The notes beneath the pieces are model-generated. The model worked only from the letters and a program-made list of their open reading frames with translations. It was not told the DNA's origin and searched no databases. From the NCBI GenBank assembly GCA_937127445.1, contig CAKZLY010000002.1:1-64000 (forward strand): a stretch of DNA of 64,000 nt, given 5' to 3'. The DNA is from Eximiradius sp. Lineage in GTDB: Bacteria > Bacteroidota > Ignavibacteria > Kapaibacteriales > UBA2268. The translations under genes and the position numbers were made by a program. Of this stretch, positions 47,870-59,647 are shown piece by piece; positions within the stretch are counted from its first letter, which is position 1, and each line of letters starts with the position of its first letter.

Positions 47870-48598
47870 ATGAATGTTAAAGTTATTTTTAGAAATGCAT
47901 TTTTTGGTGCATTATTTTTGCTTTTTTCAATCAGTTGCAATTCTGGAAACACTAACGATTGTAGAAACAAGCCAAATCCATACAAATTACCATTAATACA
48001 ATGTATTTCAGATTACAATTCATTGGTGTTGCAAAATCCAAATATGGAATTAGTTGATTTAGAGGAATATATACCGAATATAAAATTAGATATACGATAT
48101 GCAACTGAAAACAATTTTACAGGCAAAATAATTTACACAACGGCTAAGGCTTATGCTCGCAAACCTGTTGCAATGGCTCTTAAACATCTTCAAGATTCAT
48201 TAAACAAATTAGGATTAGGGTTAAAAATATATGATGCATACAGACCTTATTTAGCAACTTTAAAATTTTATGAAGTTTATCCCGATAACAATTTTGTAGC
48301 AAATCCTAAATTTGGTTCCCGACACAATCGTGGATGTGCAATTGATTTAACTTTGATTAATTTATCAACAGGCAATGAAATTCCTATACCAACATCATTC
48401 GATGATTTTACAGAAAAAGCACACCCTGACTATCCGAATTTACCTGATGAAGTAATTAATAATCGCTCATTCCTTTTTAATATTTTGTCTCATTTCGGAT
48501 TTACTCATTACTTAACAGAATGGTGGCATTTCGACTACCAAGGCTGGGAAAATTATCCTTTGATGGATTTATCATTTGAGGAATTGAAAAAGAAATAA
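47870..48598 (+). CDS. VanX-like D-Ala-D-Ala dipeptidase lipoprotein
   Basis: A 242-residue M15D zinc dipeptidase. The N-terminus is a lipoprotein signal (lipobox SISC, C23), so the enzyme is predicted to sit in the periplasm or outer membrane. Zinc ligands by motif are H152 and D159 (SRHNRGCAID) and H220 (EWWHFDY), with E217 as base and R125 (DAYRP) for transition-state binding. Cleaving D-Ala-D-Ala released from peptidoglycan, as DdpX/PcgL do, is more likely than vancomycin resistance because no vanH or vanA lies nearby. Confidence 0.92.
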   Translation: MNVKVIFRNAFFGALFLLFSISCNSGNTNDCRNKPNPYKLPLIQCISDYNSLVLQNPNMELVDLEEYIPNIKLDIRYATENNFTGKIIYTTAKAYARKPVAMALKHLQDSLNKLGLGLKIYDAYRPYLATLKFYEVYPDNNFVANPKFGSRHNRGCAIDLTLINLSTGNEIPIPTSFDDFTEKAHPDYPNLPDEVINNRSFLFNILSHFGFTHYLTEWWHFDYQGWENYPLMDLSFEELKKK

Positions 48599-48641: not shown

Positions 48642-50741
48642 TTATTCAGAAAATTCTTGATTTTTTGACACTTTTTGCACAATCATTTCAGCAATGGCAC
48701 ATAAAATTGCTAGTAGTAGCATAATACTCCATAACTCAGTCCCAATTCTTGCTCGCTTCAAATCGTGTGACAATTGAAAGTAATTTGTGAGAATAAATAT
48801 GTTCTTGTTATGAATAGTTCTCGAATTTAGATATGAGAGGATATTTGAAACATCGGGTTTTTGAATATAAGACTCATTTTTAGGCATATTCAATGAAAAA
48901 ACGTAAGCAATTTTGTTTTGTGAATTAATGAGTTGATAAACACCTGCTTCATTGAATAATTCAAGTGATAAAGCAGCCCCAGATTGCAGCAAAGGAAGTT
49001 GAACTACAGTTTGATTCCCCGACGGGTCAATTAGCTTAAAGTTTTGGTTAGGAGATAATTTTCTTGGTATCATTACAGTTTGCTTACTCCCAACATCAAA
49101 AGAATAGCCTAATGTAATAGAAGAAGACAAATAAAAGACACTTCTAAAAATCAGCGATGGAAATAGTGAAAGCAACGGGAAATTGCTCCAATTTAAATTT
49201 GGTGCAACAGCAAAGTACAGGCATTTTCCATCTCCATATTGATTCTCAGATAAGAAATAGCCATCTTGGGATTCAATTATTGGAACACCTGTATTCACAG
49301 GTAAAATTGTAAATATTTTTGGATTGTCAATTTGGTTCAGGTTGACGCCATCGCCTGCAAGTTTGAACATTCCATCAAAGATTGGATGCTTTACATCTAA
49401 ATTAGAGAAATTGACAGGAGATTTTTCTGAAAAATTCTTTTTTTCTGATAGAGCAAATCCAAATTCTGCAAGGGAATTACGATAGTTTTCATTTATTGGG
49501 TCGGATGGGAAAAATATCGCTGAGCCGCCGCTGGATACGTATTCTCTTATTCGATTTCTATTGCTTTCAGAAAAATTTGAAAAATTGAGTATTAAGCAAT
49601 CAAACTTATTTAAATCAAGATTATTAACCGAGTTTTCATCATAAAAAGATGTATTTATTTGATTTTGAGCATCATCTGTTGAAAACAAAGCTTTTAAAAA
49701 GAAGTTGTTAGAAGTTTCACCAAAGATTGCAACGTTAGGTTTTTCTGGAATAATAAACCCAAAATAACGGTTATTATCAGGAATGAAAGCATCATTTTCA
49801 AGTTCAATAGCTGCGGATACGACTCCTGGTTTTTGAATTTGTGCGGCGATAGGAATTGACTTTATAGCATTAGCTTGAATGTCAAATGTTTTTTGAGCAA
49901 CTTTCTGTTTGTTGAATAGAAGGCTAATTAAAGCACCTTTTACATCTTTATCAGAATGATTTTTGACAGTAACGGAAAGCTCAACTGTTTTTCCAATAGA
50001 GAAAAATTTGGTAAGAACATCTATCGAATCAACAGATAGATTTTCAAAATTACTACTTGACGAATAACCAATCGGAATGAAGTAAATAGCAATGTTTCTA
50101 TTATTAAGTTTTAAGGAATCCTCTGAATGGAAAACATTTTTCTGTGCATCTGAAATAATAAACAACTCTTTCGAAAAATTATTAGCATTTTGAAAAAATT
50201 TGGCAGCTAATCTCATTGAATTATCTAATGAAGCAGGTATAGGATGCAATTTAATCTGAGAAAGCGACCGAATTAATAAATCTTTGTTCTTCGTAAATGC
50301 AGGTTGAAAAGTATTATTCATACTCGACATTTCAATAATGAGAGCTTCGTCTCCTTCTTTCATAGAATTAATAATTTTCTCGGCACTTTTCTTTGCCTGA
50401 ATAAATCGATTACCGAACTCATCAGATATATCCATACTGTAAGAGTTATCTATTAGAATAATAATGCTTGATTTAGCGTAATTCTCAAATCCAGGAATTG
50501 AACCTTCAATAATTGGTCGAGCAAATGCAAGAACAGTAAAAGTAATTATAAGGGTTCGTAGTATCAACAAAATGATTTGTTTTATTTTCAATCTTTTAAT
50601 TTTTGTCTTTTGTAGTTCTTTTAAAAACTTTAAAGATGAAAATTCAATATTCTTTAGCTTCCGTAAATTAAGAAGGTGTAATAGTACTGGTATTGAAGCA
50701 GCAATTAAGCCAAGTAGAAACAATGGATTTATAAAATTCAT
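48642..50741 (-). CDS. BatA-type membrane protein with von Willebrand factor A domain
   Basis: A 699-residue membrane protein. Its N-terminus (FINPLFLLGLIAASIPVLLHLLNLRK, then a second helix at 55-77) is the aerotolerance-regulator BatA module. The vWA domain starts at residue 92 with the MIDAS motif D98-N-S100-Y-S102. A long extracytoplasmic part with two beta-sandwich stretches (about 240-320) and a glutamine-amidotransferase-like region (about 330-460) precedes a C-terminal helix (about 670-690). It follows the TldE-like gene by 26 bases and is the last gene of the run starting at 54760. Bat proteins are linked to envelope stress; the role here is unknown. Confidence 0.85.
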   Translation of the reverse strand: MNFINPLFLLGLIAASIPVLLHLLNLRKLKNIEFSSLKFLKELQKTKIKRLKIKQIILLILRTLIITFTVLAFARPIIEGSIPGFENYAKSSIIILIDNSYSMDISDEFGNRFIQAKKSAEKIINSMKEGDEALIIEMSSMNNTFQPAFTKNKDLLIRSLSQIKLHPIPASLDNSMRLAAKFFQNANNFSKELFIISDAQKNVFHSEDSLKLNNRNIAIYFIPIGYSSSSNFENLSVDSIDVLTKFFSIGKTVELSVTVKNHSDKDVKGALISLLFNKQKVAQKTFDIQANAIKSIPIAAQIQKPGVVSAAIELENDAFIPDNNRYFGFIIPEKPNVAIFGETSNNFFLKALFSTDDAQNQINTSFYDENSVNNLDLNKFDCLILNFSNFSESNRNRIREYVSSGGSAIFFPSDPINENYRNSLAEFGFALSEKKNFSEKSPVNFSNLDVKHPIFDGMFKLAGDGVNLNQIDNPKIFTILPVNTGVPIIESQDGYFLSENQYGDGKCLYFAVAPNLNWSNFPLLSLFPSLIFRSVFYLSSSITLGYSFDVGSKQTVMIPRKLSPNQNFKLIDPSGNQTVVQLPLLQSGAALSLELFNEAGVYQLINSQNKIAYVFSLNMPKNESYIQKPDVSNILSYLNSRTIHNKNIFILTNYFQLSHDLKRARIGTELWSIMLLLAILCAIAEMIVQKVSKNQEFSE

Positions 50742-50767
50742 AATAGTTCAAATAAATAAAAAACAAA

Positions 50768-52519
50768 TCAATTCAAAACAACAGGTTTAGACAAAATTGG
50801 TGGTTTTTTGAAATCGTCATCGCTTGATTTAATTTCACCATCTTCAAGTAATATGTCAAAAGTAGTTATGCTGGCGGGGAGATACGATTTACCACCAGTC
50901 ATAAATGGATTAGCAACAGAGTTTGCTAAATAATTATAAACAAATTGATTTTTCCCAACAAAAATAATATCTTTAAAAGATTGAGCAGAAATATTATTAA
51001 CAAAAGTTCCACGAATTAGTTCTTCTTTGCCATCAGGAAAAACTTTATAAGCAAGAGTTATTAGTAATTTATTCCCGCCACGCGGAATATCAATATTCCC
51101 AAAAGTTAAGCCATATAAACCAGTATAAAGAATATTAAGATTTTGTATTTTCTTGACAATAATACCATAAGGCAGTTCGCGAGCTTTTATAAGTTTTATT
51201 AATTTACTTTTCAATTCGTTGTAAGATAGCTGATTCTTATTTGCTGATAAAATAAGATTACTAATCATAGCGGAACCACCTCTGTTATGTCCATTACTCT
51301 GCTTGACACGACGAGTAGGCACACGCGAAGACATCAAAGATTTTAAGTAACCATTCTCAACTAATAGAACATCTTGTGCAGGTATCCCATCATCATCAAT
51401 TTTGTAATACCCAAATAATTGAGTGCCCTTATAATCAGAAAGATTAGGTTTTGCCCAAACAGAAATAAATTCAGGCAGGACTCTACCACCAATTTTATTT
51501 TGAAAGAGAGAGAACTGAACATCATCAGTAAAAAAGCCACCGTCCATTATAGGTTTTCTTTGAGCAACAAGATTTGGAGCAAAAATTTGAGCCACTAATT
51601 CAGCAGAAGCTTGTTCAGTAAATAATATGGGACCGTTGTAAGCCTCATCTATTGTTGATGCCTGCTTCAATTGTGAAACATTCTGGGCCACAAGTTTTGC
51701 ACCGTTTATAAGTGAATCAAGTGAAGGCAGTTTTTCAGGTGTTCTGCTATAGGAGGAGAAGAAATCAAAAACAAGCATACCATCAGTAGATTGAGTTGCT
51801 GCAATAACTTCTACCCCACACTGAGTATTTCTTTTGATGTATTCAGTTCCTTCACTGTTAATATAGTAAACAAATTCGTCGATACCTTCAACTGTAGTTC
51901 TGGAAACATCAATATTATTATAGTTTCTAAAAACATAGGAAACTTTCTTAGCAATTTCTTCTAACTTATTAATGTCAAATTTAACCAGATAATTAGTATC
52001 AATAGACTTATACGATGGAGTTTTAAGGAAATCGGGCGTTGTATCTCTTCTTATTTTATTTTTAAGCGAAGTTTCTTTCTTTGTGAAAATTTCTGCACTT
52101 CTCTTATAAGCAGCATCAGTTGCAAGCCACAAATTTTTTCGAAGGTTATGGTAGCTAAGTTCAATAGGAAGGCGACGGTTCATAAATTGTTCTTCGTCAT
52201 CACTACTACCAAATAAATTCAATCCAAAATCAATATAATTTGAGTTATCAAACTGATAATCTCCAACTTTGACATTAACAGTAAGTCGAGCAATCGGTGC
52301 AGTTTGCAAATCGGTAGTGTTCCCTAAAACTGCTTGAACATTGATATTTGTTGAATATTCAAGTTTATATTCAATAAAATATGGTATTTTCAAATTTTCT
52401 ATTTTTAGATTTCTCATTGAACGGTCCATTTCGTCTCGCATTGCTTGCATAATTTCATCTTTTGCGAACAAATTAGAAATAAATGCCAAAAATAGAAGAA
52501 GCAAAAATATTTTTTTCAT
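50768..52519 (-). CDS. Exported TldE/PmbA-like protein (non-catalytic TldD-family paralogue)
   Basis: A 583-residue protein with a clear signal peptide (residues 1-19, LFLAFISNLFAKD). It aligns in order with the TldD-like protein encoded upstream: helical start, DFGL/KVGDYQFDN strand, VARRAY-like helix, G-Y-Y-x-x-D-D-x-G-I-P-A-Q-D block. It lacks the HExxxH motif (SAELVAQIF at that place) and the C-terminal cysteine ligand. This is the relation of TldE to TldD in E. coli, where only TldD binds metal. Classical TldE is cytoplasmic, so export is unusual. It overlaps the membrane-protein gene by four bases. Confidence 0.85.
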   Translation of the reverse strand: MKKIFLLLLFLAFISNLFAKDEIMQAMRDEMDRSMRNLKIENLKIPYFIEYKLEYSTNINVQAVLGNTTDLQTAPIARLTVNVKVGDYQFDNSNYIDFGLNLFGSSDDEEQFMNRRLPIELSYHNLRKNLWLATDAAYKRSAEIFTKKETSLKNKIRRDTTPDFLKTPSYKSIDTNYLVKFDINKLEEIAKKVSYVFRNYNNIDVSRTTVEGIDEFVYYINSEGTEYIKRNTQCGVEVIAATQSTDGMLVFDFFSSYSRTPEKLPSLDSLINGAKLVAQNVSQLKQASTIDEAYNGPILFTEQASAELVAQIFAPNLVAQRKPIMDGGFFTDDVQFSLFQNKIGGRVLPEFISVWAKPNLSDYKGTQLFGYYKIDDDGIPAQDVLLVENGYLKSLMSSRVPTRRVKQSNGHNRGGSAMISNLILSANKNQLSYNELKSKLIKLIKARELPYGIIVKKIQNLNILYTGLYGLTFGNIDIPRGGNKLLITLAYKVFPDGKEELIRGTFVNNISAQSFKDIIFVGKNQFVYNYLANSVANPFMTGGKSYLPASITTFDILLEDGEIKSSDDDFKKPPILSKPVVLN

Positions 52520-53064
52520 TTATGAACCTCGTTTTGATTGCAAAATTTAGATAAAGTATTATAGAAATCGTTTGGTTTTTGAGTACCAATAAGCAACCGA
52601 GCACCATCTTCGAAAAACAGTTGAATGCCTATTTTACCGTAGACGTTAAATGCACGTCCAGCGGGTCCGACACGAATTCCCCAACCTCCATAATCAAGAA
52701 TTGGGCTATACTGACGAATTTGAAAACGTTTAATATTATCAAAACTATATGTTTTAAATTTCATAAACGGGAATAGTCTCACGTGAATTCCAGATTTTGT
52801 GATATACGTCTCCAACTTACTTGAAAAGAAAAGCAAAAGAATACCAACCGCGAATACAACTGAAATTACCATTGATATTAACAATCCTTGATTTGATAAT
52901 GGCTTATCTCCAAAAGGGATATTTTTAACTGCTTGAAGATAATATCCATAAACAAAGAACAATAACGGAAACAGTGCCGCAATAATTACTAATACAATTA
53001 AAGGTTTTTGTTTAAATTTTTGAATTTCATAAAATTCAATTTTTTCATTGAGAAAATGCTTCAT
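52516..53064 (-). CDS. Small two-helix membrane protein
   Basis: A 182-residue protein with two hydrophobic helices (about 22-42 and 61-81) and a C-terminal soluble domain of beta strands. The strongest block is YGGWGIRVGPAGRAFNVYGKIGIQLFFEDG and GTQKPNDF, a pattern seen in PH-like membrane-associated domains of unknown function. Its start overlaps the end of the TldD-like gene by 20 bases, and its end overlaps the TldE-like gene by four. This tight packing between the two protease-like genes suggests a shared function, for example membrane attachment. Confidence 0.75.
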   Translation of the reverse strand: MKHFLNEKIEFYEIQKFKQKPLIVLVIIAALFPLLFFVYGYYLQAVKNIPFGDKPLSNQGLLISMVISVVFAVGILLLFFSSKLETYITKSGIHVRLFPFMKFKTYSFDNIKRFQIRQYSPILDYGGWGIRVGPAGRAFNVYGKIGIQLFFEDGARLLIGTQKPNDFYNTLSKFCNQNEVHK

Positions 53065-54760
53065 AATCGGGTGCCTCCAAAATTGGGGGTTTAGCTTGAG
53101 ATTTAACTTTTTTCTGTACTTCTATTCTTGAAACTAATAAACTTGGAGAAACAGCAGACACTGGAACTCCACCAGATTCAGCTCCACAAGTGCCATTGAA
53201 AACACCAATATCATCAGCTGCTAATATTACATTAGAAAAAGTAGTAAGAGGTGTTCCGATTAAATCAACACCTCGAACAAGTTCATCAGGACGCCCATCG
53301 ACATACACTTTATAGATAATTATTGGAGTAACATTGAAAGCATTTGGAATATATCTCGTAGTGAAAGTAAAACCGCCTGAAACTTGCTCAAAAAACAATC
53401 CATATTCTTTGTTCTGTTTTTTAGCTTCTTCGATAAGTTTATTTCTTAACTCAGGTTTAGAAACTGTTTGAGTAGCCTCGACGATTAAATTTGATTGGCG
53501 TGAAATCGCCTGATAACCAATTTGCTTTCTACCGTGACCATTTGAATTAGGGAAGTTCTCGATAGGAATTCGAGACATAAGATAGCCATTGAAAATACCA
53601 TTTTTGACTGTTTCTACTTTTTGAGCTGGAATGCCTTCGTCGTCGTATTGATAATAACCTGAGATTGCTTTTCCATTAATTTCAGATACATTAGGATCGA
53701 AAATTACATTAATAAAATCAGGTAAAATTTTCTTTCCCAGAGAACTTTTGAAAGTCTGACTGCTGGAAGGATCTTTTTCACGATGCCCCTCCACTCTATG
53801 ACCAAAAATTTCGTGGAAAAACACACCAGCTGCCTCTCCTGACAAAATTGCAGGTCCTGAATAAGTTTCAGCAAGAGAAGCATTACGTAATTTATCGAGT
53901 AAAACAATCATTTCATCAATTTTTTTTGAGATTTCATCTTCGGGAGGTAATCCGTCAGGAGTAAAGGCGAAATACGATTGGTGTAGTGGAAGGCTCATTC
54001 CATCGTCTGCTTTAGTTTTCAAATAAACAAAAATTCGAGCGAAACTTTCGCTAGTGGCGACTTCAAATCCGTCGGTATTAAGAATTAATTTATTATTAAC
54101 TTCAAATGAAAAAGAGACAGTAGCATTGTGTAGCCATTTATGAGAATTAAATTTTTCTGATAAATTACGTAATACACCTGCCCATTTTACTGTATCCAAA
54201 TAATAATGTTGATTATCGCTCTGAGATAAATTGATATATTTCCAGGCTTGAATATCTCGAACTGGCTTTTCTTTAGAAAAATCGTCTGAAGTATCTTCTT
54301 CGGCAACTTTTACTGCCTGGTTTGTAAGTGCTTTTTCGTATCGCTCAATAGCATTTTTATATATTTGGTCGGTAGCATACCATATAATATCTCTAATTGA
54401 AGCTTCATCATTATTTAATGGCAGCGATATTTTACTAACACTTGACGAGAAATCAAAAGGATTCCCTCTAATTATATGTGTATTGTCAAACTTATGGCTA
54501 CCGACTCTGATATCGATATCCATAAATCTTGATAGGTCAAAACTATTTACACTTATCTTCCCGAAAGATGCTTGTATTGTTGATTTTTGAGTTTCTAATA
54601 CGTAATATGAAATGAAATATGGTGGCAGCTTTTGCAATGATAGTTCTTCCTGACTTCTTAGCATTTCCTTTTTCAAAATATTTAAAAGTTCGATATTGGA
54701 AGAAATCAAGTTGGCAGAGAAACAGTAGAATAGCAGTATTACCAAAATTATTTTTTTCAT
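53045..54760 (-). CDS. Exported TldD-like metalloprotease
   Basis: A 571-residue protein with a signal peptide (residues 1-20, IILVILLFYCFSANLIS). The TldD zinc site is complete: HEIFGH (H316, E317, H321) and C525 in GTCGAESGGVPVSAVSPSLLV, which corresponds to the cysteine ligand of E. coli TldD. The block GYYQYDDEGIPAQ (368-380) is also typical. E. coli TldD/TldE is a cytoplasmic heterodimeric peptidase that trims unfolded peptides such as microcin B17 precursor. Here the same enzyme is apparently periplasmic. GAAGGA precedes the ATG. First gene of a four-gene operon. Confidence 0.9.
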   Translation of the reverse strand: MKKIILVILLFYCFSANLISSNIELLNILKKEMLRSQEELSLQKLPPYFISYYVLETQKSTIQASFGKISVNSFDLSRFMDIDIRVGSHKFDNTHIIRGNPFDFSSSVSKISLPLNNDEASIRDIIWYATDQIYKNAIERYEKALTNQAVKVAEEDTSDDFSKEKPVRDIQAWKYINLSQSDNQHYYLDTVKWAGVLRNLSEKFNSHKWLHNATVSFSFEVNNKLILNTDGFEVATSESFARIFVYLKTKADDGMSLPLHQSYFAFTPDGLPPEDEISKKIDEMIVLLDKLRNASLAETYSGPAILSGEAAGVFFHEIFGHRVEGHREKDPSSSQTFKSSLGKKILPDFINVIFDPNVSEINGKAISGYYQYDDEGIPAQKVETVKNGIFNGYLMSRIPIENFPNSNGHGRKQIGYQAISRQSNLIVEATQTVSKPELRNKLIEEAKKQNKEYGLFFEQVSGGFTFTTRYIPNAFNVTPIIIYKVYVDGRPDELVRGVDLIGTPLTTFSNVILAADDIGVFNGTCGAESGGVPVSAVSPSLLVSRIEVQKKVKSQAKPPILEAPDYEAFSQ

Positions 54761-54802
54761 TTTAATTCCTTCAAATCATAAAAAAGCTTTGACGAAAATT
54801 AA

Positions 54803-54836
54803 CAAAATTAATTTGTTAACACTATAAAATTACAAA
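54803..54836 (-). promoter_or_regulatory. Predicted promoter of the TldD/TldE/BatA operon
   Basis: On the minus strand TTTG (54836-54833), 22 bases, TAATTTTG (54810-54803). The -7 box lies inside a perfect dyad TTAACAAA-ATTAA-TTTGTTAA (54799-54819), a possible operator. Confidence 0.5.
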
Positions 54837-54931
54837 AAAATACTTAAATAATCAGCAAAGCCTCATTATTTAAGCCTTATAAAATTATAGATCAAATCAA
54901 AACCATCTGCAAAAACCGATGTGCTTATTTT

Positions 54932-56494
54932 TTACGTATAATTTTGCGGTACAAATATGGACAATTGAGATTTGTTATTTTTATAGGGTTGTATTTTTAT
55001 ATTTCCATTAATAGATTTTATGATAAAATCAATTAATTTTAGATTAATAGAAATGCTTTGAAAAAAACCAGAATTATTTATCATTTTTGTATTAATAAAT
55101 TGAAAAATATTAGGCGAAAACTCTCCTAAAATGCTTATTTCATAAAAATCATCTCTAGTTCTGTTCGTTATCGTTATTTGTTCATCAATGGAAATTTTAG
55201 AGATAACATCAATCAGATTATTAAGTAGTGAACGAATAATTAACCCATTATGAAGCAATATTTCATCACCTCCTTCATAATTGATTTTAACACTTCGGTA
55301 GCTAAGAGGGCTATTCACAATAGACTGTTCGATAGAATGAAGTATTTTAGGTAACACAATTTTATCTTTTTTAAAAGAAAATTCTCTGTCAGAATGGATT
55401 TGTTCTATCAGGCTTGCGACTTCCATAGATTTAGTCAACGAATCAATTAATTCGAAAATGTTTTGTAGGTGCTTTTTAGATATTTCGTCTAAATTTTCAT
55501 CGATTGGTTCTAAATAATTAATATCTATAAGACCGTAATATTTCTTAACTTCCTCTATATATGCTTTACGCAAACTTTTTGATTGTCTTTCTTGTTCACT
55601 GAATGAAGCAATTTCTTCTTTTGCTTGCTGAAATTTCTGGGAAGCACTTGATTTAAGAATTTCCAATGTTTCCTTATTAGATTTATTATTAATGCTTTTT
55701 TTAATAAGGTTTTCAAGCTGAACATTTATCTCAATCAAACATTTTTCTAATTCAAGCCTTTTTTCTGCATCGCGTAATAGGAAAAGTATTGCCTTATTCA
55801 TTCCCCAAGGAACTATTGAAGCAGAAACATCAACAAATAGATAACCGCCTTTTGCTTTCGGAAAACTTACAGAGTTATAAATTGAACCATTTATTTTAAT
55901 TGTTTCAAGGAAGTTATCCTGAAGAAAAAGTTTAGTATTAGAAAAAATCTTTGAATAGTGTTTCCCAATATTGGGTTTTTTCTTATATCCAAGAAGATTA
56001 TACATTGTATAATTTATATCATAAACAATTCCAGTGTTGCAATCCATAACAAAAGCAGCATCATGAGAAAAATCAAAGTATTTTTGAAAAGCTTGCTTCG
56101 ACTTTTGCAATGCTTCACAATTACTGTTTTGTTCTAATCCATATTTCAATACTCGTCGTAAAACGCTGGAATTTAAGTTATTTTTCGAGATATAGTCGAT
56201 TGCACCATTTCGCACTGCCAGAATAGCATAGTCTTCATCCTGATTGCCAGTAAGCACAGCAATTGGAATACCTTTGGCAAGCGATTGCATTTTTAGAAAA
56301 GTATTAATTCCGAATGAATCAGGCAAAGCTAAATCGAGTAAAATTAAATCAAAATTATCTTTGTTTAACTCACTTAATCCATCTTCCAATCTGATTTGCC
56401 AATTAATATCAACATTCTCATTGGAATACCCTTCAATAAGCGTTTTAACTAAAAAATAATCAGATTTACTATCTTCAATCATTAATATTTTCAT
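54932..56494 (-). CDS. Receiver-PAS protein with degenerate kinase-like C-terminus
   Basis: A 520-residue soluble protein. Residues 1-120 are a receiver (acidic E7-D8, phospho-acceptor D54 in LLDLALP, K104). Residues 130-245 form a PAS domain (YFDFSHDAAFVMDCNTGIVYDINYTM), then a helical segment to 350. The C-terminal 140 residues resemble a HATPase fold (LLNNLIDVISKIS, FIIKSINGNIKIQ) but show no DxGxG or GxGxG loop, and no H-E/D-x-R/P phospho-histidine box is found. It is probably a pseudokinase or binding module. Its ATG overlaps the upstream response-regulator stop (ATGA). Confidence 0.8.
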   Translation of the reverse strand: MKILMIEDSKSDYFLVKTLIEGYSNENVDINWQIRLEDGLSELNKDNFDLILLDLALPDSFGINTFLKMQSLAKGIPIAVLTGNQDEDYAILAVRNGAIDYISKNNLNSSVLRRVLKYGLEQNSNCEALQKSKQAFQKYFDFSHDAAFVMDCNTGIVYDINYTMYNLLGYKKKPNIGKHYSKIFSNTKLFLQDNFLETIKINGSIYNSVSFPKAKGGYLFVDVSASIVPWGMNKAILFLLRDAEKRLELEKCLIEINVQLENLIKKSINNKSNKETLEILKSSASQKFQQAKEEIASFSEQERQSKSLRKAYIEEVKKYYGLIDINYLEPIDENLDEISKKHLQNIFELIDSLTKSMEVASLIEQIHSDREFSFKKDKIVLPKILHSIEQSIVNSPLSYRSVKINYEGGDEILLHNGLIIRSLLNNLIDVISKISIDEQITITNRTRDDFYEISILGEFSPNIFQFINTKMINNSGFFQSISINLKLIDFIIKSINGNIKIQPYKNNKSQLSIFVPQNYT

Positions 56495-56937
56495 TCTTCC
56501 CTCTTCGGAAGTGTTACAATTGAAAACCAGAAATTTTCAATTTTTCTAACAATTTCACAGAATTGATTAAAATCCAACGGCTTTGTAACATAGCAATTTG
56601 CGTAAAGATTGTATGATTTCAGAATATCTTGTTCATCATTAGAAACAGTCATTACAACAATGGGTATTTTCTTTAATTTTTCATCTTGTTTTACTTCTTG
56701 CAAGACTTCGAAACCATTTTTCCTTGGCATATTAAGGTCAAGTATAATAAGGTTAGGTGTAGGAACGTTTTCGAAGCCATTTTGCTTTCGTAAAAAATCC
56801 ATTGCATAAACACCATCAGAAACAGTATGCAGATTATTAAGCAGTTTGGTGTCTTTGAGTGCTTCTTCGATTAAACGGACATCGCCAATATTATCTTCAA
56901 CTAATAAAATTTCAGCAAAACGTAAATCATAATTCAT
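56491..56937 (-). CDS. Single-domain response regulator (Rcp1-like)
   Basis: A 148-residue receiver domain without an output domain. Acidic pair E14-D15 in LVEDNIGD, phospho-acceptor D67 in LDLNMPRKNG, T94 in VMTVSND and K109 in VTKPLD. The VEDNIGDVRLIEEALK opening and NGFEVL loop are typical of Rcp1-type regulators, the partners of phytochrome-like kinases. This agrees with the kinase type encoded directly upstream, which it overlaps by 11 bases. It probably receives phosphate from that kinase. Confidence 0.92.
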   Translation of the reverse strand: MNYDLRFAEILLVEDNIGDVRLIEEALKDTKLLNNLHTVSDGVYAMDFLRKQNGFENVPTPNLIILDLNMPRKNGFEVLQEVKQDEKLKKIPIVVMTVSNDEQDILKSYNLYANCYVTKPLDFNQFCEIVRKIENFWFSIVTLPKREE

Positions 56938-59209
56938 AGAAATTATCCTTAATGTTTTTCGAAATAGAAAAAATAAATGTAGTCCCCTTGTTTAATTCGG
57001 ATTCGAAGGTAATCCAACCATTATGGCGTTGAACGATACGTTGGCAAATAGCGAGTCCAATTCCATTGCCAGGGAATTCATCACGAGTATGTAGTCTTTG
57101 GAAAATTTTAAATATTCTATCCTTGAATTGGTTGTCAATTCCAATACCGTTATCCTGTACTTTAAAAATATATTCACTATCGTTTTCATCAGAAGAAATT
57201 AAAATTTCGGGTCTTACATCATTTTTTGAGAATTTCAGGGCATTGTTGATTAAATTTAATAAGAGCTGAAAAATTTGCCCTTCGTCGCAAATTATTTCTT
57301 CCGGAAGTTCATTGAAATATATACATGCTTTTTTGTCTCTAATAACTAATTTTAAATTATCGATAACCTTGCTGACAAGATTGTTCATATTCACAGGTTC
57401 AAATTTCCCGGGACGGGTATTAATCCGCGAATAGGACAACAAATCATTCACCATTTGCTGCATTCGTATAGAACCATCAATTGCAAAATCAACAAATTCA
57501 GTAGCTTCTTTGCTGAGTGAACTGAAATATCGCGATTTGAAAAGTTGCAAGAAACTACTAATCATCCGTAAAGGTTCTTGCAAGTCATGAGAAGCAACAT
57601 AAGCAAATTGCTGCAATTCTTCATTTGAACGTAAGAGTTTGCTCAATAATATTTTTTCCTTCTCTTCGAGTATTCTTCTTTCATGAATATCTTGCAAACT
57701 GCCAGCAACCCGGGTTGGCATATCATTTCCTTCTTTTATGATTTTGCCTCTAACCAAATACCACCTATAATTATTACTATTCGATTTCAAACGGAATTCC
57801 AAAACAAACGGCAAGAACTGGATGAAATGATTTCGAACAGTCTCAATTACATAATTTATATCGTCAGGGTGAATTAAATTTAATATATAAGAATTATTGA
57901 AAAGGCTTTCTTCCGCATCAATTTCAAGCATACTCTTTAACTTAGGGGACAACCAAAATTGTTTTTGCTGGACATCCCAATCCCATAAACCATCATTAGA
58001 ACCTTCAACAGCGAGCTCGTATCTTTGCTGAGTTTCAATTAGTTGTTTTCTTAATTCTCGAGCTACAGTAATATCTCGAAATATCAACCAATACCCATTA
58101 GTATTGCCGAAAAAATCTTTTTTTGTCCAAATTTTAGCATTAAGAATAATCTTACTACCATCTTTTTTATAAATTAATATTTCGTCAATAAAACTATATT
58201 CTTTATCAATATCAAGAGTTTGAATTGAGCTAATAATATCTTGTATTAATTTTCCTTTAACTTCAGAATAAGTCATTTCAACCATTTCGCAAAAAGTCTT
58301 ATTTGCATCAATTATTTTCCACTCATTAGAAACATAAATAATGCCGTCAGAACTAGTATGGAACAAATTTTGATAAAGCTTTATTGATTCGTTCAACTCC
58401 CTCGACAAAACATTAATTTTAGTAATATCAATGAAAAATCCAAAAACACCAACTACTTTATTGTTTCTATCTAAATGCTTTGTAAATGAAATATAAAAAT
58501 CTCGAACATTATTTTCGCTGATTAATATCGAAATATCAATAATAAAAGATAAATCATCTGAGATATAAAAATTAGCAACTTGCTGTTCTAAATGAAGTAA
58601 AGAAGTCTGAGAGTTTGACCCAACTTCTGATAATTTTTTATTCAGCAGTATATTCGAATTAGTTTGAAAAATTTTATTAAAAGCACTATTCGAATTTTTT
58701 ATTATAAGATTATCATTCAAATAGATAACTGGAATAGGAATAGAATCAAAAAAGACATTGAAATAATGTTTGATTTCCTCAATTAGAGAGTTTTTTTCTT
58801 CGAATTCCGTAACATCTTGACAAAAAGTAAGATAACCTATTGTTTTACTGCTTTTGTCGCAATATTTAACGTTAATCCATTCACAAACAACAACTGACCC
58901 ATCCTTTTTGTAATTACGATTTTTACTACGGCAATTGTCTTTCGAAGATAATTCATTAATTACTTTTTGAAATAAACCAAAGTCTTGTTCATAAACAAAG
59001 TTAATTTCAAAAACCGACTTACCAATTACTTCATTTTCTTCCCAAAGAAAAATTTCTTGGGCTTTGTTGGACCACTTAACAATACGCCACTTTGTGTCGA
59101 ACAAAATAATAGGGATAGGACTATAACTAAAAAAAATATCAATAGAATAGATAGTATTATCTAACATTAAATTTGATATTTCATTTATACTGCCAATCAT
59201 TTCATTCAT
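56927..59209 (-). CDS. Multi-PAS sensor histidine kinase
   Basis: A 760-residue soluble kinase. Four PAS domains (about 20-135, 145-265, 275-385 and 395-512, the last being PAS-PAC with WDWDVQQKQFWLSPKLK) precede the kinase core. The phospho-acceptor is H541 in VASHDLQEPLRMI, the bacteriophytochrome-type H-box. The ATPase has NLINNALKFS, QDNGIGID and GNGIGLAICQRIVQRH. There are no transmembrane helices and no GAF/PHY chromophore domain, so the signal is cytoplasmic and unknown. The gene is five bases downstream of a lone receiver gene and overlaps the next receiver. Confidence 0.93.
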   Translation of the reverse strand: MNEMIGSINEISNLMLDNTIYSIDIFFSYSPIPIILFDTKWRIVKWSNKAQEIFLWEENEVIGKSVFEINFVYEQDFGLFQKVINELSSKDNCRSKNRNYKKDGSVVVCEWINVKYCDKSSKTIGYLTFCQDVTEFEEKNSLIEEIKHYFNVFFDSIPIPVIYLNDNLIIKNSNSAFNKIFQTNSNILLNKKLSEVGSNSQTSLLHLEQQVANFYISDDLSFIIDISILISENNVRDFYISFTKHLDRNNKVVGVFGFFIDITKINVLSRELNESIKLYQNLFHTSSDGIIYVSNEWKIIDANKTFCEMVEMTYSEVKGKLIQDIISSIQTLDIDKEYSFIDEILIYKKDGSKIILNAKIWTKKDFFGNTNGYWLIFRDITVARELRKQLIETQQRYELAVEGSNDGLWDWDVQQKQFWLSPKLKSMLEIDAEESLFNNSYILNLIHPDDINYVIETVRNHFIQFLPFVLEFRLKSNSNNYRWYLVRGKIIKEGNDMPTRVAGSLQDIHERRILEEKEKILLSKLLRSNEELQQFAYVASHDLQEPLRMISSFLQLFKSRYFSSLSKEATEFVDFAIDGSIRMQQMVNDLLSYSRINTRPGKFEPVNMNNLVSKVIDNLKLVIRDKKACIYFNELPEEIICDEGQIFQLLLNLINNALKFSKNDVRPEILISSDENDSEYIFKVQDNGIGIDNQFKDRIFKIFQRLHTRDEFPGNGIGLAICQRIVQRHNGWITFESELNKGTTFIFSISKNIKDNFYEL

Positions 59210-59214
59210 ATCAG

Positions 59215-59580
59215 TTAAATATCGGAATTACATTCATAAAATTGAATAAGTTCAATAAAGACACTCCAATCCATAGGTTTATTAAGAAAATCAGTAGCTC
59301 CAAAATTAAATGCTTCTTTAATTATAGCCTGGTTTGGTGAGCCTGAATATAAGATAAAGACTATATCATCGTTCATTGCTTTTAAGTTCTTGAGTAAATC
59401 AATACCGTTAATATTTGGCATAAAGTAATCACAAAGCACAACATCGTATTTGTATGGCATATAGCTATCGAGAGCTTCTCTCGCATCATCAAATGCATCA
59501 CACTCGTAACCATTAATTTCTAATGCATTTTTTAACATTTCGAGTGTCGAGTTATCATCATCAACAATAAGTATTCTCAT
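59215..59580 (-). CDS. Single-domain response regulator
   Basis: A 121-residue receiver domain: D7-D8-D9 at the start (RILIVDDDN), phospho-acceptor D51 in LCDYFMPNINGIDLL, S80 in LYSGSP and K99 in NKPMD. ATG 59580 is chosen over an upstream in-frame start because a strong GGGAGGT (59591-59585) sits four bases before it. It is the first gene of the four-gene signalling run 59580-54932 and may act as an input or phosphate sink for the kinase that follows. Confidence 0.92.
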   Translation of the reverse strand: MRILIVDDDNSTLEMLKNALEINGYECDAFDDAREALDSYMPYKYDVVLCDYFMPNINGIDLLKNLKAMNDDIVFILYSGSPNQAIIKEAFNFGATDFLNKPMDWSVFIELIQFYECNSDI

Positions 59581-59647
59581 AATTACCTCCCAAATAGTAA
59601 TCATATAGTGTAGTAATCATTATTCATAATACATACAATTAACATAC

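Follow-up and report, generated by a model that had tools for sequence, protein, structure and literature searches.

A conserved exported branch of TldD/TldE-like proteins in Kapaibacteriales and other bacteria

Does a TldD/TldE-like peptidase work outside the cytoplasm, and do the genes packed around it belong to the same machinery? In the literature that we found, TldD/E is treated as acting inside the cell, and the general role of this widespread pair has been called elusive (PMC5810440). The question is raised by a locus of Eximiradius sp. (GTDB lineage Bacteria; Bacteroidota; Ignavibacteria; Kapaibacteriales; UBA2268), which lies in a window of 64,000 nt (assembly GCA_937127445.1, contig CAKZLY010000002.1, positions 1–64,000, forward strand). 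When the open reading frames were re-read, the four packed minus-strand genes of the initial annotation were recovered at 48642–54760, joined in turn by a 20-base overlap, a 4-base overlap and a 26-base gap:

exTldD, 53045..54760, minus strand: 571 aa, with a predicted Sec signal peptide at about residues 1–22 and a full TldD-type metallopeptidase fold.
p182, 52516..53064, minus strand: 182 aa, DUF6141-like, with predicted transmembrane helices at 20–45 and 58–81 and a PH-like domain at about 83–176.
exTldE, 50768..52519, minus strand: 583 aa, with a predicted Sec signal peptide (LFA-KD site); a TldD/PmbA-type pseudo-subunit without metal ligands.
BatA-type protein, 48642..50741, minus strand: an N-terminal double-transmembrane domain and a vWA domain; a lineage-specific neighbour.
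Upstream region of 171 bases, 54761..54931, minus strand: between the run and a same-strand response-regulator/PAS gene.

Read directly, the upstream region carries AAGGA a few bases ahead of the exTldD start; promoter and terminator scans performed no better than shuffles. Directly upstream of the run are four consecutive signalling genes (54932–59604, minus strand), response regulators and a PAS-rich histidine kinase, which are kept in genus mates. Convergent with the BatA gene, a D-Ala-D-Ala dipeptidase-type M15 protein is encoded at 47870–48598 (plus strand) and has a lipoprotein-like start (LLFSISC).

Both Tld proteins matched the TldD/PmbA C-terminal domain in Pfam (PF19289; 1.2e-26 for exTldD, 2.7e-14 for exTldE). 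Residues were compared in one alignment of 205 proteins. The complete metal site claimed for the first gene was found exactly (H316, E317, H321 and C525) and is invariant in 62/62 exTldD relatives. In E. coli TldD, the ligands are His262, His267 and Cys454 and the acid-base is Glu263 (PMC5810440), which correspond to H316, H321, C525 and E317 of exTldD. The third gene likewise proved to be the ligand-free paralogue it had been taken for, with A, Q, P and M at those sites and the full set present in 0/56 relatives. The closest relative of exTldD in a PDB sequence search was E. coli TldD, over residues 267–547. Scores against the canonical TldD models of NCBIfam stayed below the cut-offs, at 81.9 versus 635 bits for NF040952 and 48.8 versus 513 bits for NF008006. 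An AlphaFold2 model of exTldD, built with 28 other sequences (pLDDT 86.6, pTM 0.84), gave 16 significant Foldseek matches in the PDB, every one a TldD/PmbA protein; E. coli TldD chains were best, led by 5njf_A (E 6.2e-30, target TM 0.77). The model thus presents the entire TldD fold in exTldD, even though its first domain escapes detection by Pfam.

Around the metal, the exported branch differs from canonical enzymes. Two residues that hold the clamp in E. coli TldD, K456 and D272, show little or no variation among 34 canonical sequences. In exTldD both have changed: A527 stands in place of the first (62/62) and, in most cases, H326 in place of the second (51/62), while R322, S529 and G530 are invariant. 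The resulting signature (R322, H326, A527, E528, S529 and G530; pattern HEIFGHRxEGHR...CGAESG) indicates that the branch has active-site features of its own on an unchanged metal site. Since both of these clamp residues are replaced, the exTldD active site may be tuned differently.

Export was assessed with a simple rule-based score that considers the hydrophobic stretch, n-region charge and a small-x-small site. Both Tld N-termini in the window, where the initial annotation had proposed signal peptides, score as Sec-type signals. Across relatives, the same was true of 58/62 exTldD, 52/56 exTldE and all 7/7 D–E fusions, versus 1/15 canonical TldD and 0/17 canonical TldE controls, and most of the signal-negative exported proteins are reading frames with over-extended starts. 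No consistent lipobox was seen in the exported Tld proteins, which makes soluble proteins in the periplasm the simplest reading. With export signals on both subunits, the enzyme should act outside the cytoplasm.

The genes for the two subunits are also kept together. Of 36 relatives in which linkage could be decided, about 30 have D next to E, far beyond chance, and six have kept both genes unlinked. Seven genomes encode the two as a single chain of about 1070–1160 aa, with D first and one signal peptide: an acidobacterium, three Bacteroidaceae/Prevotella, one other member of the Bacteroidota and two members of the window's order. Because the fused partners are a catalytic and a ligand-free copy, these chains give good, though indirect, support to a 1:1 heterodimer. 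The proposal of an exported heterodimeric TldD/TldE-like peptidase is therefore upheld by signals on both proteins, the split into catalytic subunit and pseudo-subunit, adjacency, co-retention when unlinked and natural fusions; periplasmic location and pairing are both well supported.

exTldD was present in 102/103 genomes of the window's order that are at least 90% complete, and in a 392-genome sample of the phylum it occurred in every order member and only patchily elsewhere. Named relatives come from Ignavibacteria/Chlorobi-side metagenome-assembled genomes (MAGs), Bacteroidales, Acidobacteria and MAGs labelled Planctomycetota and Myxococcales; a search of a plasmid collection returned canonical TldD annotations only, at low identity. 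The canonical pair (PF01523) was found in 18/103 order genomes, all within the window's own family, with two further weak PF01523 matches in the order outside that family. The exported pair is thus the sole TldD/E found in about four fifths of the order. Replacement of the canonical by the exported pair was rejected for the window genome, which has both; the idea fits about 80% of the order. In some family members (L055, G007:C56; L054, G023:C26) there is an additional, more divergent exTldD/exTldE pair, with about 48% identity for D.

How the inactive partner arose bears on how exTldD and exTldE relate to the known proteins. In a FastTree phylogeny, exTldD and exTldE were split from canonical TldD and TldE with support 1.0; exTldE fell outside the TldE clade and grouped with exTldD. 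A single ancient D/E duplication was rejected by constrained trees on the full-length alignment (451 columns, AU P = 8e-5) and again on the C-terminal domain without the ligand columns (LG+F+G and LG+C20, P = 0.02–0.03), a short alignment in which the third topology was not rejected (P = 0.06–0.08). The grouping of exTldD with exTldE suggests that the pseudo-subunit probably arose a second time; given the unrooted tree and its long central branch, this second origin is likely rather than proven.

Relative to E. coli TldD/TldE (PmbA; MEROPS M103), the exported pair thus shares the fold, with HExxxH and a remote Cys on one subunit and the other ligand-free. It differs in its Sec signals on both subunits, an identity of about 16% in structural alignment, the lack of a detected PF01523 domain, the replacement of K456/D272 and the grouping of exTldE with exTldD. 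The window genome's own canonical pair (L130, G000:C26:3968-6816) likewise combines an HExxxH-bearing TldD with an adjacent ligand-free TldE; unlike the exported pair, all three Pfam TldD domains are detected and there is a signal on TldD only. This signal is Tat-type (MIMQDYPRRDFLKHCGIGLGVVM), the partner TldE has none, and TatC is present in the genome.

Such starts are common among canonical-type TldD. RRx[FLIVM] occurred within the first 25 residues of 32/50 of these proteins in sampled Bacteroidota, versus 6/120 background reading frames, with 19/23 in distant Bacteroidota families, 5/5 in class outgroups, 8/12 in the window's family and 0/10 in one other set. The typical start is KRRDF(I/L) followed by a hydrophobic stretch (loci L130, L131–L150, L154–L157 and L168–L188), and it is missing from the TldD of some window-family members (L132, L136, L137 and L143). 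The motif was found in 0/36 TldE partners, none of which has a hydrophobic start, and in 25/32 cases a TldE gene lies within 150 bases of the Tat-type TldD gene. TldE is required for activity in E. coli, which makes Tat co-export of the folded pair a natural hypothesis. From these N-termini, it is possible that Tat-TldD brings the signal-less TldE along as a folded heterodimer, by hitchhiker export. Separately, in each of six Bacteroidota genomes two or three Tat-TldD genes stand in tandem, together with TldE genes.

The other two genes of the run have a different standing. The two-helix protein described between the Tld genes is borne out by the p182 model (pLDDT 80.5), in which a transmembrane hairpin (20–45 and 58–81) precedes a beta domain and a C-terminal helix. 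The domain appears PH-like, both by Foldseek (weakly) and by VIA-align (Z 9–10 against snRNP-assembly, myotubularin and bacterial PH domains). Against DUF6141 (PF19638), p182 scored 25 bits, just below the cut-off of 27, and one homologue (L036) scored 34.7 bits, above it. Bacterial PH-domain proteins (for example PDB 3dcx and 3hsa) share the PH-like fold; the hairpin ahead of the domain sets p182 apart from them and from DUF6141. Positive charges follow the second helix of p182, and about 12 residues are exposed on the opposite membrane face; by the positive-inside rule the domain would probably face the cytoplasm, which argues against p182 as a tether. It was present in about 11/25 family loci, always between D and E, and was not seen outside the window's family among the relatives' loci surveyed.

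The fourth gene encodes, as annotated, a BatA protein with a vWA domain (PF07584, 7.8e-18; VWA_2, 9.5e-11), the only PF07584 gene found in the genome. In Bat aerotolerance operons, batA is accompanied by further bat genes and by one for a MoxR ATPase. The window gene has PF07584 and vWA in common with those BatA proteins; it is flanked by the Tld genes and, at its other end, by convergent genes for an M15 protein and an aminotransferase, and membership of a Bat aerotolerance operon was rejected. BatA adjoins the pair in 5 loci from four genera only; in two it precedes D and in the others it follows E. The conservation of gene order expected in relatives thus holds for D–E adjacency and fails for p182 and BatA, so that a conserved four-gene unit is not supported. 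These two proteins are best read, in this lineage, as accessory neighbours that the enzyme does not need.

Upstream of exTldD, most families of the order have panD, a nucleotidyltransferase gene, a glyoxalase-type gene and a gpmA-like (phosphatase/mutase) gene, a cluster seen at some 20 loci. Directly 3′ of exTldE, Wzz, Wzy_C (O-antigen ligase/polymerase-like) and PBP2-type genes follow in 8–10 family loci, often with short gaps or overlaps. No substrate gene was found among the recurrent neighbours of the pair, nor any recurring precursor peptide gene or modification enzyme among open reading frames of at least 90 aa. The neighbourhood is envelope-flavoured, not specific.

What, then, would the pair do? 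The E. coli TldD/E complex is hollow, a shell pierced by a narrow pore; it binds peptides independently of sequence and processes them from the N-terminus (PMC5810440). As the metal site and fold are unchanged, E. coli-like action on unfolded peptides in the periplasm is the best-supported reading, and we consider it probable that exTldD and exTldE form a heterodimeric shell peptidase in the periplasm and that it trims or clears such peptides. Each protein would leave the cytoplasm on its own through Sec and have its signal peptide removed; in the periplasm the two would then combine into a closed heterodimer of roughly spherical shape, as in E. coli. exTldD would hold one metal through the two His of HExxxH and C525 and cut peptides, while exTldE, taking no part in catalysis, would complete the shell and its entry pore. 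Substrates would be unfolded peptides, taken N-terminus first with little sequence preference and degraded or trimmed; the most likely task would be clearing or recycling peptides released in the envelope. We prefer this task to a dedicated substrate because the pair is near-universal while its neighbours change.

The same observation weighs on the idea of a dedicated maturation protease, for which the target of trimming would be a specific secreted peptide or the N-terminus of certain envelope proteins. Leader removal is a known role of the family, for example in microcin B17 maturation (PMC5810440, PMC10885120), and the Wzz, Wzy_C and PBP2-type genes supply an envelope setting. However, near-universal retention in ten families whose neighbouring genes vary is more in keeping with a general task, and a recurrent precursor or modification enzyme gene is missing beside the pair, leaving this role unlikely. 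The TldD fold might instead be used on a non-peptide amide of an envelope glycan or small molecule. Such an amidase or deacetylase would fit the branch's own signature around the metal and the envelope polysaccharide and PBP genes often in its setting, and N-deacetylases are counted in the TldD/E family by the title of a review that PMC10885120 cites; the unchanged catalytic His-Glu-His-Cys set and full fold make it improbable.

Still less probable is a four-part envelope complex in which p182 tethers the pair to the inner membrane and the peptidase is coupled to BatA. It draws on the tight, overlapping packing in the window and in genus mates, the constant position of p182 between D and E, and the adjoining BatA genes, upstream of D in two genera and downstream of E in two. 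Against it stand the limited distributions of p182 and BatA and the topology of p182, with a hairpin, only a dozen or so residues beyond the membrane and a probably cytoplasmic PH-like domain; the membrane tethering suggested for this protein is thus unlikely. Finally, the signal stretch could be an uncleaved anchor rather than a cleaved peptide. That it is merely an anchor on a cytoplasmic or cytoplasm-facing enzyme is the least probable reading, since a short positive n-region with a single hydrophobic stretch predicts translocation of the remainder, small-x-small sites follow the stretch in most homologues, and canonical relatives lack it.

In the works searched, which do not include the 2022 family review, we found no account of TldD as exported, as periplasmic or as a Tat substrate. 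The exported TldD/E branch is real, conserved and, in this literature, undescribed, and it is built on a known enzyme. A broader reading, which we advance tentatively, is that Bacteroidota and some other phyla may have extracytoplasmic TldD/E by two independent routes: a Sec pair with a self-duplicated inactive partner, and a Tat-TldD that carries a signal-less TldE. These routes give directly testable predictions, namely Tat hitchhiking and a second origin of the pseudo-subunit. The exported form, near-universal in one order, offers a defined compartment and genetic setting for a substrate search, and the repeated D–E fusions are a ready single-chain form for structure work. If the two-route reading is true, the shell of enzyme plus pseudoenzyme would have two evolutionary origins, and across much of the Bacteroidota the envelope would be the main site of TldD/E action.
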